Part shown: piece after piece, positions 38,101 to 45,112 of the stretch
How positions within the stretch are numbered: position 1 is the first letter of the stretch
How the letters are laid out: each line of letters begins with the position of its first letter
From: Dechloromonas sp. A34
GTDB lineage: Bacteria; Pseudomonadota; Gammaproteobacteria; Burkholderiales; Rhodocyclaceae
NCBI RefSeq assembly: GCF_026261605.1
Contig: NZ_CP102486.1
Coordinates: 1-64,000, forward strand
DNA length: 64,000 bases
Reading direction: 5' to 3'
Program-made: the position numbers and the translations under genes
Notes under the pieces: generated by a model
Told to the model about the DNA's origin: nothing
What the model saw: the letters and a program-made list of their open reading frames with translations, nothing else
The model's database searches: none

Positions 38101-38997
38101 TCAATCCCACAGCCACGCCGCGCCGCGTACTCCCGATGAGTCGCCATGGCTCGGCGGCACGATACGGGTTAGGCAGGTATCCGAAAAAACGTACGGCCAA
38201 CAGGCGGCCGGCAGGTTGCTATAGAGGCGCTGCAGGTTGGACAGGCCGCCGCCGAGCACGATGACCTGCGGGTCGAGCAGGTTGATGACGCCGGCCAGCG
38301 CTTTTCCCAGGCGCGCTTCGTAGCGTTGCAGCGACGCTTCACAGGCTGCATCGCCGCTGGCAGCGTGGGCGGCGATGGCCACGGCATCGAGCGATTGTCC
38401 CGTCCGCACCCAATGGTCGACGGCCAGTGCCGGGCCGCTGAGATAGGTTTCGATGCAGCCTTGCCGGCCGCAGTAGCACGGCGGTAGCGGCAAATCGTCG
38501 GGCCCGGGCAGAGGCAGGGGGTTGTGCCCCCATTCGCCGGAAATGGCGTTGGCGCCGCTCAGCACCTGCCGGTTGACGACGATGCCGCCGCCAACCCCGG
38601 TGCCGAGGATGACGCCGAAGATGACCTCCGCATCGTGCCCGCTGCCGTCGACGGCTTCGGAGAGCGCAAAGCAGTTGGCGTCGTTGGCCAGACGGACCGG
38701 GCGCTGCAGAACGGCCTGCAAATCCCGGCGCAGGGGCTTGCCGATCAGGCAGGTCGAGTTTGCATTCTTGATCAGGCCGCTGGCCGGTGACTCGGCTCCC
38801 GGGATGGCGATGCCGACCGAGCCGCGCCGACCAAGTTCGTTCTCGACCGTTTCGACCAGCCCGGCCACGGCCATCAGCGTTGCCATGTATTCGCCCTGTG
38901 GCGTTGGGATGCGGCGGCGCAGCAAGGCCTGGCCGTCATCGGCCAGCGCGACGACTTCTATCTTCGTTCCCCCAAGATCGATCCCGATACGTAACAT
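38101..38997 (-). CDS. ROK-family sugar kinase (fructokinase/N-acetylglucosamine kinase-like), 5' end replaced by integrative element
   Basis: This is an ATP-dependent hexose kinase of the ROK family, 298 residues from the ATG at 38997. Motifs are IGIDLGGTKIE (ATP phosphate loop) and the ROK zinc site CYCGRQGCIETYLSGPA near residue 178, preceded by GEWGHNPLP; VILGTGVGGGIV and VIVLGGGLSN are also present. The substrate cannot be fixed from sequence. The first 13 codons (MLRIGIDLGGTKI) use AT-rich codons and belong to an inserted element. The displaced native 5' end, encoding LRIGVDLGGTKI, is found 6.1 kb away at 45073-45109. No clear ribosome site precedes the new ATG. Confidence 0.87.
   Translation of the reverse strand: MLRIGIDLGGTKIEVVALADDGQALLRRRIPTPQGEYMATLMAVAGLVETVENELGRRGSVGIAIPGAESPASGLIKNANSTCLIGKPLRRDLQAVLQRPVRLANDANCFALSEAVDGSGHDAEVIFGVILGTGVGGGIVVNRQVLSGANAISGEWGHNPLPLPGPDDLPLPPCYCGRQGCIETYLSGPALAVDHWVRTGQSLDAVAIAAHAASGDAACEASLQRYEARLGKALAGVINLLDPQVIVLGGGLSNLQRLYSNLPAACWPYVFSDTCLTRIVPPSHGDSSGVRGAAWLWD
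38956..38997. other. attL: Element left junction (att-like), recoded kinase 5' end
   Basis: This stretch and 45071-45112 encode the same peptide core (LRIG-DLGGTKI) on the minus strand with many synonymous differences. They share the uninterrupted core TATCTT (38959-38964), after which the kinase body continues on this side only. This is how a tyrosine-recombinase element looks after entering the 5' end of a coding gene and carrying in a substitute start. The exact crossover lies within a few bases of the core. Confidence 0.65.
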
Positions 38998-39035
38998 ATT
39001 GAAATAAAACAAATATTAATAATTTCGTTATTAAT

Positions 39036-39055
39036 TAGCTACGCAATTGGCTACA
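39036..39055. repeat. Left arm repeats TAGCTACG / GGCTACA
   Basis: TAGCTACG (39036-39043) and GGCTACA (39049-39055) are repeated in the same orientation near the right end of the element. They are candidate arm-type integrase binding sites and lie in the leader of the regenerated kinase gene. Confidence 0.5.
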
Positions 39056-39235
39056 ATAATACTTTAGCGTGCAACCGAGACATAGTGTTGACTGTGAGGT
39101 GATTGCAAGCGATTTCAATTTTATAGCTGGAGAAAGGCGAGTTGTCCTTGTTTTTCATTGACGGGCTCGATTGAGAACAAAACCTATTGCAGTAAAAAGA
39201 TTGGTGGCTATAAAAAGATAGTTGCCCCTCTTTCA

Positions 39236-40459
39236 TTAAAGCTTCTGAAGTTCTGCAAGTTCCCGTTTAAGTTCTTCGAGTTTAAGTCGTTGGTTCAAAT
39301 ACTTGTTGTCATAAGCGGTTTTTGCAGATGCTCGTGCTCTGCCGCACACTAGCAGTTCTGGCATTGGAATATTATCGGCTCTGCATTCTGGCGCTGGACG
39401 ATAGATTGCATCAAAGTCCGGGATCTTTTTGGCCAAGGAATCAATGTCGGCAATCAATGCAGCTCGCCTTTCGAGTCGATCTAATCTAATTTCATTACGA
39501 ACCCGTTCGTTTTGCCGTCGAATTTCTTCCCCTTTCGCTAAAGCAATAGCAACCTCAGTATCGTGTATGCGCTTATTTACATCTTCAAGGCTAGTTTTCG
39601 TTCTCAGAACCTTTTCTACAATGCTCGTAAAACCAAATATTGGCTCCACACAGTATTTGCAGTTGGCCTCTATATTCAATATATTGTTATTGGTGAGTAT
39701 TATTCTGTCTTGATTTGTAGTCGTGTTAACGTACAGCATCCAGCGATATTTTTCTTCTCCGCCAAAAAAAACAAGTCTGTTTGTTTGAGCGCTAACGATA
39801 TAGCTTCCAGGAGGGAGCTTGATTGAAAAATTACCGTTTGAATCGGTTACACTGGATGCAATCGGTTTTAAAAGTGTTTCTGCTTTATATTCGTAGGGAT
39901 TCTCTAAGTAGGTTTTGTAAAACTTAATTAACGAAATCAATTCATCTCTGTATTCATACAGGGATAGCAAATCTGCTGATTTGACTCTCTGCTGAAGTGT
40001 TTCCTCCTCCGCTATTGCTGATGAGCGCTGCCGTCGGATTAAATATTCCATTTCGTTAGCTGAGTACGCATTCACCTCAACGGCACCAAGTCTAATGTTC
40101 TCGCGACCTCTTGTTGAAACGAAAATCTCGCCTTTAATTGACGCGGGCGATTGGCTATTTTCATAGAGTACTACTGCGAAAACAAAAACTATCAGAGTAA
40201 TAACGAAGGCAGTGACTTTAAGCTTGGATAGTTGACGAAAATATAAAGATAGCTTGGTATAAAGTCCAATTTCGTCGGAAATGTCCAGAGATATTAAATC
40301 GTTCTCGGATGATTTATCTGCGGTGCTGCCATATGGTTTTGACGGAATGCAGGGAGCTACGGCTTTGCTATAGATTACCCCGCAGTGTGGGCACTCTTCG
40401 TTAGCCGCGCTGTCTCTCTCTTGCCGTTCATAGCCACATTTGACGCAAACCTTGTCCAT
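39236..40459 (-). CDS. Unknown zinc-ribbon, single-pass membrane protein (element cargo)
   Basis: I do not recognise a named family for this 407-residue protein. The N-terminus has a two-pair cysteine ribbon (CVKC at 5-8, CPHC at 23-26), followed by a polar linker and one transmembrane helix at about 82-99. Beyond the membrane a beta-sandwich-like segment resembles a carboxypeptidase-regulatory/transthyretin fold (TDSNGNFSIKLPPGSYIVSA, about 208-227). A long charged coiled coil (about 285-350) and a second Cys pair (CRADNIPMPELLVC) come next, then a helical Leu/Glu/Lys tail. The ribbon would face the cytoplasm and the coiled coil the periplasm, or the reverse. Codon use is AT-rich like the rest of the element. 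It is the only evident cargo gene. Confidence 0.7.
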   Translation of the reverse strand: MDKVCVKCGYERQERDSAANEECPHCGVIYSKAVAPCIPSKPYGSTADKSSENDLISLDISDEIGLYTKLSLYFRQLSKLKVTAFVITLIVFVFAVVLYENSQSPASIKGEIFVSTRGRENIRLGAVEVNAYSANEMEYLIRRQRSSAIAEEETLQQRVKSADLLSLYEYRDELISLIKFYKTYLENPYEYKAETLLKPIASSVTDSNGNFSIKLPPGSYIVSAQTNRLVFFGGEEKYRWMLYVNTTTNQDRIILTNNNILNIEANCKYCVEPIFGFTSIVEKVLRTKTSLEDVNKRIHDTEVAIALAKGEEIRRQNERVRNEIRLDRLERRAALIADIDSLAKKIPDFDAIYRPAPECRADNIPMPELLVCGRARASAKTAYDNKYLNQRLKLEELKRELAELQKL

Positions 40460-40878
40460 ATCACGCTTTATCCATCGTCAATAAGTTAGAACTATAGCAT
40501 GTTGAGCGGAGCTTGATTTTTGGGGGCGTGGATTAGTGGGTGGCAGATTAGTTAGTGTTAAGGGGTGACCAGAAGCGTCGTTAGTAGATCGCTTAGGTGG
40601 TCCTCCCTAGCGCATGTAACGGCAAGCCTTAGCGGTGTAAAACATGAATTATTGCTAGTGGGGCGCCGTAGCTTCCAGCCTGGTCTCTATGGTTGGCGAG
40701 CTATTAGATGGCTCTTCAAAAAATCCTTGTGGGGCGATTATTTAGTCATGTTAACGATAAAAAGCTGTTGCGCCACCTTTAAGAATTTGACACAAATCTC
40801 CACGGTCGATTTTTTGTGGGAATTATCTTAAATTCTCATAAGGTGACGATTTGGTTCGCTTCTGTGTTTAATGTTGGT
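40460..40878. other. Gene-poor AT-rich stretch between cargo gene and IS-interrupted rep-like gene
   Basis: I see no convincing gene on either strand. A plus-strand frame at 40565-40831 lacks a ribosome site and any recognisable motif. The stretch presumably holds the promoter of the minus-strand cargo gene (a TATAGT hexamer reads on the minus strand near 40493-40498). Confidence 0.4.
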
Positions 40879-40886
40879 TTAGCTAT

Positions 40887-41894
40887 TTAACTGGTAGACG
40901 CGATCAATTGAATCGCCCCGGTTTCCGTGGAGGCCGGTTGGTTTAAGTCAGGCCACGATGGCGGCCTGATCGGCGAGTTGCCTGTAGTAGTTTGCCTCAG
41001 CTTCTGCGGGGGGATATAGCCAATCGGTTCAAGCAGCCTGTGGTGGTTAAACCAAGACACCCATTCCAGAGTTGCCAGCTCCACGGATTCCCTGGTTTTC
41101 CAAGGGGCGCGCCGGTGGATCATCTCCGCCTTGTACAAGCCATTAATCGTCTCGGCTAGCGCGTTGTCGTAGCTGTCGCCCTTGCTGCCGACTGATGGCT
41201 CAATCCCGGCTTCGGCCAGTCGCTCGCTGTAGCGGATCGAGACGTACTGCGAGCCCCTGTCCGAGTGGTGGATCAAGGCCTCGTCGGGACTCGGCTGACG
41301 GGCGTACAGCGCCTGTTCCAGCGCATCGAGCACGAAGTCCGTATGCATGGAACTGCTCACTCGCCAACCCACGATACGGCGGGCAAAAACGTCGATGACA
41401 AAAGCCACATATAACCAGCCTTGCCAGGTCGAGACATAGGTGAAGTCCGAGACCCACAACTGATTGGGACGGTCGGCCTTGAACTGTCGATTGACCCGAT
41501 CCAGCGGGCAAGCCGCTTTGCTGTCGCTGATCGTGGTGCGCACCACCTTGCCGCGCATGACTCCGCGCAAACCTTGACGCCGCATGAGTCGCTCGACCGT
41601 ACAACGGGCCACCGCGATGCCTTCGCGGTTCAGTTGCCGCCAGACCTTGTCGGCACCATAGACCTGCAGGTTGGCCTGCCAGACGCGCTTGATCTCGGGC
41701 ACTAACACCTCGTCACGCCGCACTCTCTGACTGCGCTGTTCAGGATTGCGCCGCCGAGCGACATGACGCCGGTAGCCCGACGGGGCAATCTGCAATTGCC
41801 TGCAGATCGGCTCGACCCCGAAGGCAGCACGATGCTCGTCGACGAAAGACCTCAAGACTTGAATCGGCGGTCGAGCTCCGCCTGGGCGAAAAAC
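40887..41894 (-). CDS. IS3-family transposase OrfB (catalytic, DDE)
   Basis: This is the integrase-core transposase, expressed as an OrfAB fusion by -1 frameshifting. The likely slippery run is GTTTTTC on the minus strand at 41888-41894, inside the orfA end. Catalytic acidic residues lie in [21 protein letters not shown] and [11 protein letters not shown]. An HTH_21-type segment ([18 protein letters not shown]) precedes the core. The reading frame has no stop inside the IS and runs 22 bases past its end into the interrupted host gene, stopping at 40887. Confidence 0.88.
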
Positions 41895-42225
41895 GCGCTG
41901 GCAAGCTTGAGGATCTCGTTGGCTTTGCGCAGCTCTTTGACCTCGCGCTCCAGTTCCTTGACACGCTTCTGGTCCGCCGTGGTCGGCCCTTCGCGCTGGC
42001 CGGCATCTCGTTCGTGCTGACGCACCCAGGTCAGCAGCGTCTGCGGCGTGCAACCGATCTTGACCGCAATGGATTCAACGGCTGACCACAGCGACGGATG
42101 ATCGGCACGGCTTTCGGCAACCATGCGCACGGCGCGCTCACGAAATTCGGGGGAGAACTTAACTGACTTCTTCATGGCTCTATCTTCTCAAGAGTTAGAG
42201 CCTCCACCAAACCCGGGGCGATTCA
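40909..42225 (-). mobile_element. IS3-family insertion sequence, 1317 bp
   Basis: The terminal inverted repeats are about 26 bp, starting TGAATCGCCCCGG at both ends and continuing to TGGAGGC with about four mismatches. Inside are the standard overlapping orfA and orfB with DDE transposase motifs. Only a 2-bp AT repeat flanks the element, with no clear 3-4 bp target duplication. It is inserted near the 3' end of the replication-protein-like gene. With the IS removed, that gene continues in frame as IDRVYQLNS before a stop at 40879-40881. Confidence 0.9.
41852..42175 (-). CDS. IS3-family transposase OrfA
   Basis: The 107-residue DNA-binding subunit has a helix-turn-helix ([21 protein letters not shown], split here as positions 33-53) and a C-terminal leucine-zipper coiled coil ([20 protein letters not shown]) that leads into the frameshift site. 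It starts at ATG 42175, 50 bases inside the right inverted repeat, and overlaps orfB in the -1 frame. Confidence 0.9.
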
Positions 42226-42923
42226 ATGCTGGTCAGTTGGCATAGGCGAAGCTCTCTATAAGTAGGGGTGCGGTTTAGTCTTCGCCTTGCTTCCACGCGC
42301 AAATACGGGCCTCGCCGCAAATGTTTCTGCTGATCCCAATCGGCTTGTCTTTTGTCGTACAAGCAAAATGAGCAGGGCCGTCCTAGCCGACCATCATTAA
42401 GAACAATGGTTCTTGAATTTCCGTTGTGGGAGGTATACAAAACTTCAGTCATTAGCGGGTTGTACGTGTCTATCGTATTGACATCAATGCCATAGAAATC
42501 AGCTGCAAACTCTACTTTATTAACGTACGCATCTTCCAATAGGGAAGAGTATCCCCCGTTAGGGACTAGATCACCGATTACTTGATGAAAGCGTTCGCAC
42601 GCAATAGGGTTGGTAATTAGTTGCTGAGCGTTGTAGGCAAACTTTGCATACGGATGCAATGCCCCTTTCCTATCTCTTGCTATTCCAGTTTCTACTATGA
42701 GGTTCAGCTTTCTTTTGGTGAGTAAGGGAAACCGGGTTATAAATGAAGGGTTGCGATTGTTTGGGTAATGGTTTGCTCCAGCGTTAAATGCCTCCTTCGA
42801 ATCTTTATACATTTTAATAATGTCGTTGATGATTTGCAGTGAAACAAAATTATTTTTTCCGTAACGTAGACTTACTTCGATTCTGTCCACTTTTAGATCT
42901 CTTCTAATGATTTCATTTGCCAT
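42195..42923 (-). pseudogene. Replication-initiator-like protein of the element, 3' end cut by IS3
   Basis: This protein has about 232 native residues, beginning MANEIIRRDLKVDRIEVSLR at ATG 42923 with GGTGG upstream. A central VEFAADFYGIDV, a later SFCLYDKRQADW and a basic RVEARRRLNRTPTYRELRL loosely resemble rolling-circle or phage-type replication initiators (acidic metal site plus YDK block). This is a weak family guess and no HUH motif is evident. The IS interrupts codon 233, and the frame then reads IS sequence to a stop at 42195. The original tail (IDRVYQLNS) survives on the other side of the IS. The loss is only about nine residues, so residual function is possible. Confidence 0.55.
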
Positions 42924-43102
42924 GACGTTACCCACCGTAAACCTAGTAACGACAATGATTTCAATGTTATCTATCTATTAATCCTATAACTTGTTAGATG
43001 AGATTTTGAAATCGATTTCAAAACAATATTGGTTGCACTGTCGGCGTGCCAGTCCTAAAAATTTCGGATTTGCTGCCGAAAATCTTAGAGTAATGTGATT
43101 CT

Positions 43103-43139
43103 CTAGGGGGTCCCTAGTAGCACGCCTAAACGAGTGCTA
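43103..43139. repeat. Adjacent inverted repeats upstream of rep-like gene
   Basis: CTAGGG-GGT-CCCTAG (43103-43117) is followed at once by TAGCAC-10 nt-GTGCTA (43118-43139). They sit just below the stop of the AlpA-like gene and about 180 bases upstream of the replication-protein-like start. A replication origin, an operator or a terminator are all possible. Confidence 0.45.
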
Positions 43140-43149
43140 ACTTAATTCG

Positions 43150-43446
43150 TTACGCTTTGAGAGTGTTTGTCGATGATAGGAATGCACGAATGGTTTGTGT
43201 ATTCCAATAATTCATCTTTCCATCCCTGCCATCCGGGGGAGGGAAGTTGCCTGCTTTCAACCGGGAGTAAAGAGTTGAATGGGCTATGCCACATAGCGCT
43301 AATACGTGCGCAGTCCTCAATCGACCGGGACCGGATAGATCAATTAAAGGGCGTTGTGGAGATACATGAGAAGATCGCCTAACCCTGTTAGGTACTTCAT
43401 CTTTTGAGCGATCCCGAGTTCGACGGATCCGGTTTAACTGTAGCAT
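43150..43446 (-). CDS. AlpA-like helix-turn-helix regulator/excisionase
   Basis: The 98-residue protein has a basic N-terminus (LQLNRIRRTRDRSK) and a MerR/AlpA-type winged helix: LRTAHVLALCGIAHSTLYSR, then KAGNFPPPDGRDGKMNYWNT and IRAFL. AlpA proteins act as excisionase or integrase regulators in P4-like satellites and islands. The ATG at 43446 is chosen because AAGGAG lies eight bases upstream; the frame extends nine codons further without a ribosome site. An inverted repeat operator candidate lies in its leader. Confidence 0.8.
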   Translation of the reverse strand: MLQLNRIRRTRDRSKDEVPNRVRRSSHVSPQRPLIDLSGPGRLRTAHVLALCGIAHSTLYSRLKAGNFPPPDGRDGKMNYWNTQTIRAFLSSTNTLKA

Positions 43447-43503
43447 AGCTATTTCTCCTTGGTTTGGAATCAATAAGCCACGCCCAATGTGGGATCGCGA
43501 TTT

Positions 43504-43523
43504 ATCCTATTGGTTGATAGGAT
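43504..43523. promoter_or_regulatory. Operator-like inverted repeat ATCCTAT-6-ATAGGAT
   Basis: A perfect 7-bp inverted repeat with a six-base spacer lies about 60 bases upstream of the AlpA-like start, within an AT-rich leader (43474-43669) that separates it from the integrase stop. It is a likely binding site for an element-encoded regulator. Confidence 0.5.
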
Positions 43524-43669
43524 TTGATTATTATATCCAGTTAAATCTATATGTCAACCGATTGATATTTTTGAATCCAGGTGAGTGAATATTTATTAAG
43601 TTGATGATGGTTTCGCATAACGCTAACTAATATCCGACATTTATTACAACGATTATCCTTAATGCCGAA

Positions 43670-44899
43670 TTATGCAATGCCGTGTAACGAGATAACATTG
43701 GACCTGTCAGATTTTTCCCCTGTTTCGCAATCTTGCAGAAAAGTTGCCCATGTCTCCAATGCACGGCGGCGTTCATCGAGGTAGTCGTGTTTGTCGTAGA
43801 TTGATATTAGGTTTCCTAAGTCATGATTGAGGCAGCGCTCGGCTACTATGATGTTTACCCCCATCGCAGCTAAGTGGCTTCGCGCGGTTGAGCGCAGGTC
43901 GTGCGGTGAAAATTCCCTTACGCCAAGTTGTATTCGATCAAGGGCGGCGTTAAGTGTGCTTGTGGAAATCGTATCGCGCTTTTTTCCATAACCATTTTTT
44001 CGTGCGGGCAACACAAATTTGCTGTTTTCCGCGAAGGTGCGCAATTCATCAAACCAACCAGAGACGGTAGGGGCAAGAGGTATTACAAACGCTTTCTTGT
44101 TCTTTGCGTTTTCTGCTGGGATGGTCCAAAGGCCATTGTCGATATCTTGCCACCTTGCTTTTATTAGCTCACTTTTGCGAGTACATGTCGCTAACAATAT
44201 TTTGATAGCTAGCGCATTTTCCTTGCCGAGTTCCTGTGCCATTGGAAGGATGATTCGAAGCTCTTCTTCGCTTAGATTTACGCGTGGCCGTCTTGGCTTT
44301 GCTTCCCCAATAATTGCAGCCACCTTGAGGTCGGCGCATGGGTTTCTTGGCACTGCGTACCGTGCAACGCCAAATGAGAAGATGACTGATAGGGTTTCAA
44401 AGGTGCGCCGGGCCACTGAATGGGAACGTTTGGCAACTTGCTCGACAACATAGACGATTTCCCTAGCCGTAATTTCCGCTGCTGGAGTTTTTCCGATTCG
44501 GGGAAGGATGTCTTTATCAATATAGCGAGCGACTTCTTTCTTGGTGCTTTCCTTTAGCTTTGGGCCTGCAAGTTCCAGATATTGCAGGGCAAGGTTTTCA
44601 ACGCTTTGCGCTGTACGCTGCGCTAACTTCTCTTTGCGCTTCTCTGAAGCAACGTCAATTCCGCGATCAACTTTGGCGCGTAGCAATGCGGCTTCGCTTC
44701 TCGCTTCACTGATCCCCAAATCTGGGTAGTTCCCAATGGTGCATTCCTTGGCCTTGCCACCATAGCGGTAACGAAGAACCCATGAGTTTGTACCAGCTTC
44801 GGAGCGGGTGAAGGTGAGGCCGTCGCCGTCACTTTTTCCGGCTATTGGCTTTTCAGCCCTAATCCAAGCCTTGATCTGTAGATCAGTTAGTTTTCCCAT
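43670..44899 (-). CDS. int: P4-type tyrosine site-specific integrase
   Basis: The 409-residue recombinase has an N-terminal arm-binding domain of the DUF4102 type (KLTDLQIKAWI; YRYGGKAKECTIGNYPDLGI), a core-binding helical domain (about 100-195) and the catalytic domain. Catalytic residues visible are Arg241 (TCTRKSELIKARW), His333 and Arg336 (SPHDLRSTARSHLAAMG), His359 (CLNHDLG) and nucleophile Tyr368 (ISIYDKHDY). It lies at the right end of the element and reads inward, with the junction 170 bases upstream of its start. It should catalyse insertion into the ROK kinase gene. Confidence 0.93.
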   Translation of the reverse strand: MGKLTDLQIKAWIRAEKPIAGKSDGDGLTFTRSEAGTNSWVLRYRYGGKAKECTIGNYPDLGISEARSEAALLRAKVDRGIDVASEKRKEKLAQRTAQSVENLALQYLELAGPKLKESTKKEVARYIDKDILPRIGKTPAAEITAREIVYVVEQVAKRSHSVARRTFETLSVIFSFGVARYAVPRNPCADLKVAAIIGEAKPRRPRVNLSEEELRIILPMAQELGKENALAIKILLATCTRKSELIKARWQDIDNGLWTIPAENAKNKKAFVIPLAPTVSGWFDELRTFAENSKFVLPARKNGYGKKRDTISTSTLNAALDRIQLGVREFSPHDLRSTARSHLAAMGVNIIVAERCLNHDLGNLISIYDKHDYLDERRRALETWATFLQDCETGEKSDRSNVISLHGIA

Positions 44900-44915
44900 A
44901 CCCCTCCCGATGTGT

Positions 44916-44959
44916 GGCTAGATAGCGACTACAGAACTAAGGCTACATATCTAGCTACG
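44916..44959. repeat. Right arm repeats GGCTACA / TAGCTACG
   Basis: GGCTACA (44941-44947) and TAGCTACG (44952-44959) repeat motifs found near the left end. A related GGCTAGA lies at 44916-44922. These are candidate integrase arm sites and also overlap the integrase promoter region. Confidence 0.5.
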
Positions 44960-45070
44960 TAAATTTACCGGGTTGTTATGGATAGATCAAGATCGATGTG
45001 AATAAATAAACCAATAAATACATGCAGTTGCTATATGGTCGTGGGTTGTGTCGGATTGATATGGATTTGG

Positions 45071-45112
45071 TTTTATCTTTGTACCACCGAGATCAACGCC
45101 GATCCGCAAGTT
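45071..45112. other. attR: Element right junction with displaced native kinase 5' end
   Basis: Read on the minus strand, a TTG start (45109-45107) follows the methyltransferase TGA stop by two bases and encodes LRIGVDLGGTKI, then diverges from the kinase sequence at the shared core (TATCTT on the plus strand, 45074-45079). This is the original start of the ROK kinase, once coupled to the upstream methyltransferase gene and now orphaned. The remnant frame runs into the element and has no function. Confidence 0.65.

Follow-up and report, generated by a model that had tools for sequence, protein, structure and literature searches.

The first 64,000 nucleotides (nt) of contig NZ_CP102486.1 of Dechloromonas sp. 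A34, referred to here as the window, very probably hold an integrative element that carries a recoded kinase 5′ end in its own attachment site (attP), encodes a P4-type integrase and has its bacterial attachment site (attB) in the early codons of a ROK kinase gene (GIDLGGTKI). The element is AT-rich, measures 6,115 bp core to core and interrupts the operon of a methyltransferase gene and a ROK kinase gene at about codons 12–13 of the kinase, in a host genome of 4.76 Mb on a single contig. In the proposed mechanism, the integrase would recombine an attP containing an in-frame replacement start with the attB in the GIDLGGTKI codons of the fructokinase-like gene. Thereby, the host's start would be stranded by the methyltransferase gene and the element's start (MLRIGIDLGGTKI) joined to the kinase body, so that an intact kinase could still be made; the host would retain a full kinase, and the element would gain a site under selection at the protein level. 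The window's own integrase presumably performs this recombination, the kinase is presumably still expressed, and the element may still excise. The insertion site comprises the following features:

38101–38997, minus strand: ROK sugar kinase (fructokinase-like), first 12–13 codons element-borne (PF00480, E 2e-75)
38959–38997, minus strand: attL-side copy, the element-borne 5′ end (ATG TTA CGT ATC GGG ATC GAT CTT GGG GGA ACG AAG ATA, continuing after the junction with GAA GTC; ATG at 38997)
38998–39037, minus strand: AT-rich leader of 40 nt between arm pair and new start codon (GC 0.15 over the 52 nt before the core)
39038–39054, minus strand: putative left arm pair GTAGC-N7-GTAGC, 69 nt before the GIDLGG core
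44942–44958, minus strand: putative right arm pair GTAGC-N7-GTAGC, 142 nt past the start of the right core
45074–45109, minus strand: attR-side copy, the original kinase start (after the methyltransferase TGA, AC TTG CGG ATC GGC GTT GAT CTC GGT GGT ACA AAG ATA, continuing after the junction with AAA CCA; TTG at 45109); the junction resembles the empty sites L010 and L025
45112–45765, minus strand: methyltransferase-like gene, the kinase's upstream partner in relatives (family matches below cut-offs)

The operon is split between two copies of the kinase 5′ end. The present kinase gene starts with the element-borne codons (ATG TTA CGT ATC and following), which are in frame with the kinase, and the original start (TTG CGG ATC and following, the first 12 codons) is displaced to the far side of the element, where it lies stranded next to the methyltransferase stop, as is characteristic of a gene-restoring element. 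Across the RIGIDLGGTKI stretch, 8 of 33 nt (7 of them at third codon positions) and 1 of 11 residues are different between the two copies. The GC content is about 0.6–0.7 in the flanks and about 0.38–0.50 in the element interior, a GC-rich insertion sequence (IS) being the exception. For the kinase, the best NCBIfam model was NF007108 fructokinase (389.5 bits, under the cut-off of 443 bits), and N-acetylglucosamine kinases were among its solved relatives.

The first-pass annotation of this DNA had proposed that the element entered the gene at its 5′ coding end and brought a recoded replacement for the start, and this was borne out by the two copies flanking the element and by empty sites in relatives. 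A kinase match was obtained in 113 of the 149 relatives searched, and the upstream side was read at 69 of the 71 best kinase matches (29 + 40 loci; G016 and G020 were left out as known to be occupied). At 57 of these 69 loci, the methyltransferase end is at most 100 nt away from the kinase motif. The junction at locus L010 reads GTCTGAACTTGCG, the same as in the window, and that at L025 reads GTTTGAACTTGCG; joining the window's flanks in silico reproduces the arrangement of both. Therefore, the TTG copy is taken as the host's start and the ATG-TTA copy as the one that arrived with the element. An empty relative with both the MLRIGIDLGG form and the same upstream sequence would have spoken against this. 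L035, a relative with an empty site, does start with MLRIGIDLGG, but the sequence upstream of it bears no relation to that of the window; the MLRIGIDLGG form alone is therefore no marker of the element. The arm pair was not found at 14 loci lacking, or at the edge of, the simple adjacent arrangement. At L238 (genome G056), the methyltransferase match and the kinase lie 835 nt apart, and the kinase start (ATCATCATGTCGCTACGTATCGGAATC) is like the element-borne starts and comes without arm motifs; this arrangement could be an old scar.

The same site is occupied in other bacteria by elements with different integrases. A scan of 84,980 species genomes with an integrase alignment yielded 203 relatives, and the results given here rest on the best 80 of these 203. 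The two best integrase relatives among named genomes, those of Dechloromonas SSB2 (59% identity) and Rhodocyclales GT-UBC (56%), are both inserted at the same codons of the methyltransferase–kinase pair. Also, in the gammaproteobacterium Hydrocarboniphaga effusa, which has an integrase with 42% identity, a kinase with 61% identity is interrupted at the same codons. Core to core, these elements measure 11,400 bp (SSB2), 23,044 bp (GT-UBC) and 14,102 bp (H. effusa); the repeat in H. effusa is perfect over 31 bp. M(S)LRIGIDLGGTKI is encoded by the element-borne start of each of the four complete cases, the window included. Within RIGIDLGGTKI, the element-borne and displaced copies of the four cases differ at 8, 6, 7 and 3 of 33 nt and at 1, 0, 1 and 1 of 11 residues; being more alike as protein than as DNA, they fit a replacement part.

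The three Rhodocyclales integrases at ROK sites form a clade with support of 100/99. A single group of all five ROK rows was not rejected (p-AU 0.096), and ROK targeting may therefore have had one or two origins. The fifth case, L083, has an integrase with 47% identity and a ROK-like fragment upstream, and it was counted as incomplete because the arm pair is missing and the genome's kinase is on another contig. A search with the alignment A2 at E 1e-80 or better gave matches in 17 of the 399 genomes from the order and in 4 of the 369 from the class, the own genome included; the sole further ROK fragment was found in G833 (L279) and is a repeat of the L083 fragment. Upstream of related integrases on viral contigs, the ROK motif was found in none of 80 loci, 25 of which had at most 200 nt of scored upstream DNA. 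L232, the sole viral contig with an arm-plus-core pattern, was taken as a chance match, lying inside an open reading frame (ORF) among phage-like genes without a kinase start.

Paired motifs at a fixed spacing accompany the four complete insertions. GTAGC-N7-GTAGC occurs exactly twice in each element, one copy near each end, with 0.015–0.06 copies expected after base shuffling. The left pair starts 69 nt before the GIDLGG codons in all four, and the distance from the beginning of the right core to that of the right pair is 142, 152, 164 and 142 nt. The signature was also scored, at the corresponding two positions, across 101 kinase loci, and the core motif was present in 98 of them. For the left arm at 69 nt, 5 of the 98 matched at 10 of 10 bases, 1 matched at 9 of 10, and 92 had at least 4 mismatches; the perfect loci consist of the four insertions, which had been included knowingly, and G1206, which was known beforehand. 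Five of the six loci with the signature are visibly occupied, and the sixth, G1206, is on a contig that ends before the other side. Both G1206 and G1212, the locus with one mismatch (GTAGG-N7-GTAGC at 69 nt), belong to relatives of H. effusa. From arm to core, G1206 is identical to H. effusa at 87 of 90 nt, which is above the 84% identity of the kinase DNA, as would be expected if this stretch belongs to the element.

In 68 of the 80 genome loci, the paired motif is present within 700 nt upstream of the integrase, whatever the target, which argues that the pair is probably the arm-binding site of the integrase family; in the window, the two pairs would be the arm sites of its own integrase. 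IHF-like sites between arms and core gave a mixed picture. The fixed arm-to-core spacing of 69 nt provides a sequence rule for finding such elements without knowing their cargo.

Within the element, an integrase, an AlpA-like protein, cargo and an IS3-type insertion are found:

43670–44899, minus strand: P4-type tyrosine integrase (PF13356, arm-binding, 6.5e-19; PF22022, central, 5e-15; PF00589, catalytic, 2.4e-20; phrog_1)
43150–43473, minus strand: AlpA/excisionase-like small DNA-binding protein of 107 aa (phrog_597, E 1.2e-5; PF05930, E 0.0037, below cut-off)
42195–42935, minus strand: element ORF with its C-terminal end lost at the IS (homologues of 315–318 aa)
40909–42225, no strand assigned: IS3-type insertion sequence with two ORFs (rve and HTH_Tnp_1 domains), truncating the neighbouring ORF
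39236–40459, minus strand: cargo ORF of 407 aa (weak, below-cut-off zinc-ribbon and carboxypeptidase-regulatory-like matches)

The integrase frame is open over its full length, and all three P4-type domains are found in the one protein. The cargo ORF of 407 aa matched no Pfam, NCBIfam or PHROGs family at 1e-3 and has two homologues besides itself. With PHROGs, the four element ORFs tried gave matches for the integrase and one DNA-binding protein only; phage satellites can be without recognisable phage genes. The genome contains 9 full or near-full copies of the IS3-type sequence, that of the window included, and 4 partial ones. The size of 6.1 kb given in the first-pass annotation is refined by the core-to-core length, and the IS3-type copy within it is probably a later arrival.

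Other occupants of the site carry genes matching defence models; these calls are model matches, not function, from a search of a subset of ORFs. AbiEi and AbiEii models were matched in the SSB2 element and also at the G1204 site, where the search turned up only a C-terminal integrase fragment (61% to H. effusa) and no arm pair. The GT-UBC element contains matches to a DrmD-model helicase, PDC-S06 and a type III restriction enzyme, and the H. effusa element contains CapH- and CapP-model proteins. Altogether, defence-model genes occur at 5 of the 6 sites with readable cargo, which suggests that the ROK kinase slot may be a defence-gene hotspot. The window element is the exception, its three non-integrase ORFs giving no PADLOC match at 1e-5. 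At G1212 (L325:10527–19891), a 9.4-kb island with type I restriction-modification and Fic-type (SoFic-model) genes lies between the displaced kinase start and the kinase.

The related integrases use several targets. Sorting 81 integrase loci by target gave 26 at the 5′ end of xthA, 15 at the 3′ end of zapD, 5 at the 5′ end of a ROK gene (window and incomplete L083 counted), 3 at one further 3′ end and 1 at the 3′ end of rnr, with 29 unassigned and 2 too short. These labels are short residue patterns, and a family search confirmed four representatives only: L071 and L113 are exodeoxyribonuclease III (L113 by Pfam only), L070 is the C-terminus of RNase R and L082 the C-terminus of ZapD. The suggestion in the first-pass annotation that the integrase uses ROK codons as its site fits the position of the relatives in SSB2, GT-UBC and, in another class, H. 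effusa, but not that of most of the family, which is inserted elsewhere.

The xthA 5′-end integrases share with that of the window the integrase homology, the arm-pair motif and an element-borne gene start; they differ in the target motif, MKLATWN, and stand in other parts of the tree. At L071 (12327–12996), xthA has an element-borne start, a 23-bp core and an arm pair 70 nt before the ATG. Cores of such xthA-type insertions supplying a new start measure 23 bp at L071, 14 bp at L113 and 8 bp at L073, L076 and L077. At L072:17745–18000, an xthA-like start (MNIKIATWDINT) comes after an arm pair and continues into sequence unlike exonuclease III by eye, possibly a secondary-site insertion. The zapD (L082) and rnr (L070) integrases are likewise homologous and have an arm pair just upstream of the integrase, but sit at the 3′ end of the gene, the usual position for islands in protein genes.

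Several observations weigh against an element that targets ROK codons with its own integrase. The attL and attR sides share just 6 contiguous bases (AAGATA) at the likely crossover, which is short for a shared core; therefore, either the core is very short or the copies have drifted. Perfect identity confines the crossover to AAGATA in the window versus 31 bp in H. effusa, and it probably lies within GGNGGNAC-AARATM. A ROK fragment is present at only 5 of the 81 labelled integrase loci, one of them the window and one incomplete. Among the loci with the arm signature, the G1206 assembly has a best integrase of only 34% identity, and at G1212 no integrase of the window's family was found in the island or the genome. 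Also, 12 of the 69 upstream regions did not show the adjacent arrangement: 9 had no methyltransferase match, 2 were matched but failed the motif search, and 1 had the gap of 835 nt. Finally, the IS may have disabled part of the element.

This last point bears on a different reading, in which the element is dead, a relic fixed in the lineage whose kinase 5′ end is kept by selection on the kinase alone. The truncation of one element ORF by the IS3-type copy and the decay at related sites, with an integrase fragment at G1204 and none found at G1212, are in its favour, but the window's integrase is full length and open with three domains, both arm pairs are intact, and close integrases (94% and 88%) are found on other contigs, so that we consider a relic possible but doubtful.

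Less probable still, and in our view unlikely, is that the insertion doubles as a regulatory switch (regulated gene integrity), whereby insertion would place the kinase behind an element-borne leader and uncouple it from the methyltransferase, and excision would restore the operon. In most of the 29 relatives inspected, the methyltransferase stop and the kinase start overlap or come close to doing so, and hence an insertion breaks the coupling. The leader length is constant in arm-bearing loci; this may, however, reflect the geometry of integrase and DNA alone. A scan of the leader region for sigma-70-like promoters found none, with a mean of 0.7 in shuffled sequences, and the idea of the first-pass annotation that the kinase had been moved to an element-borne promoter is thus not supported, although a promoter may still lie in the leader despite this consensus scan. 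A reading in which the two copies are left over from a pair of kinase genes or from a duplicated gene, separated by an unrelated island, agrees with their 8 differences in 33 nt and with ROK N-terminal motifs being common, but was rejected as highly improbable, since most relatives read have a single kinase after the methyltransferase, the own genome has one kinase match only, the similarity of the right copy ends after 12 codons, and three other named genomes show the same break, again with arm pairs at a distance of 69 nt.

An element that rebuilds the kinase start matches, by analogy, the known dusA islands. Like the window element, these islands enter a conserved protein gene at its 5′ coding end, displace the original 5′ end and supply a new one; their att sequences lie within the gene and are semiconserved (Farrugia et al. 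2015, PMC4482086). Their excision was demonstrated by PCR (PMC4482086). For the replaced part of dusA, that paper reports no known cofactor- or tRNA-binding residue (PMC4482086). The window element differs in that its target is a PF00480 ROK kinase in an operon, not dusA, and in that the replaced stretch holds the DLGGTK motif. A literature search of titles and abstract openings found no island in a ROK/fructokinase or xthA gene start; both targets may, however, be listed in the principal survey of protein genes used as island sites (Mageeney 2020). The kind of integration is thus known already, and the ROK kinase would be a new target gene for it, although this novelty is unproven.

With the start of a sugar kinase gene and, via the relatives, that of xthA, the list of protein genes with 5′ ends taken over and rebuilt by islands becomes longer, and att sites built from the codons of conserved motifs could allow insertion in a wide range of hosts. 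We take the DLGGTK motif of ROK kinases to have an ATP-phosphate/catalytic role and the ATWN motif of exonuclease III to be catalytic as well. On this basis, one may speculate, as an unlikely extension, that one integrase lineage parks on invariant N-terminal catalytic-motif codons and so must carry a working, element-tuned copy of the active-site segment of the host enzyme. Each insertion would then swap start, leader and operon context and make the expression of a metabolic gene element-dependent, while the slot would collect defence-type cargo (AbiE, type I/III restriction, DrmD-like helicase, CapH/CapP regulators).

The own genome contains, at C1:544412–547976, two more genes of the integrase family close together, each 30% identical to the window integrase, which form a possible multi-integrase island.

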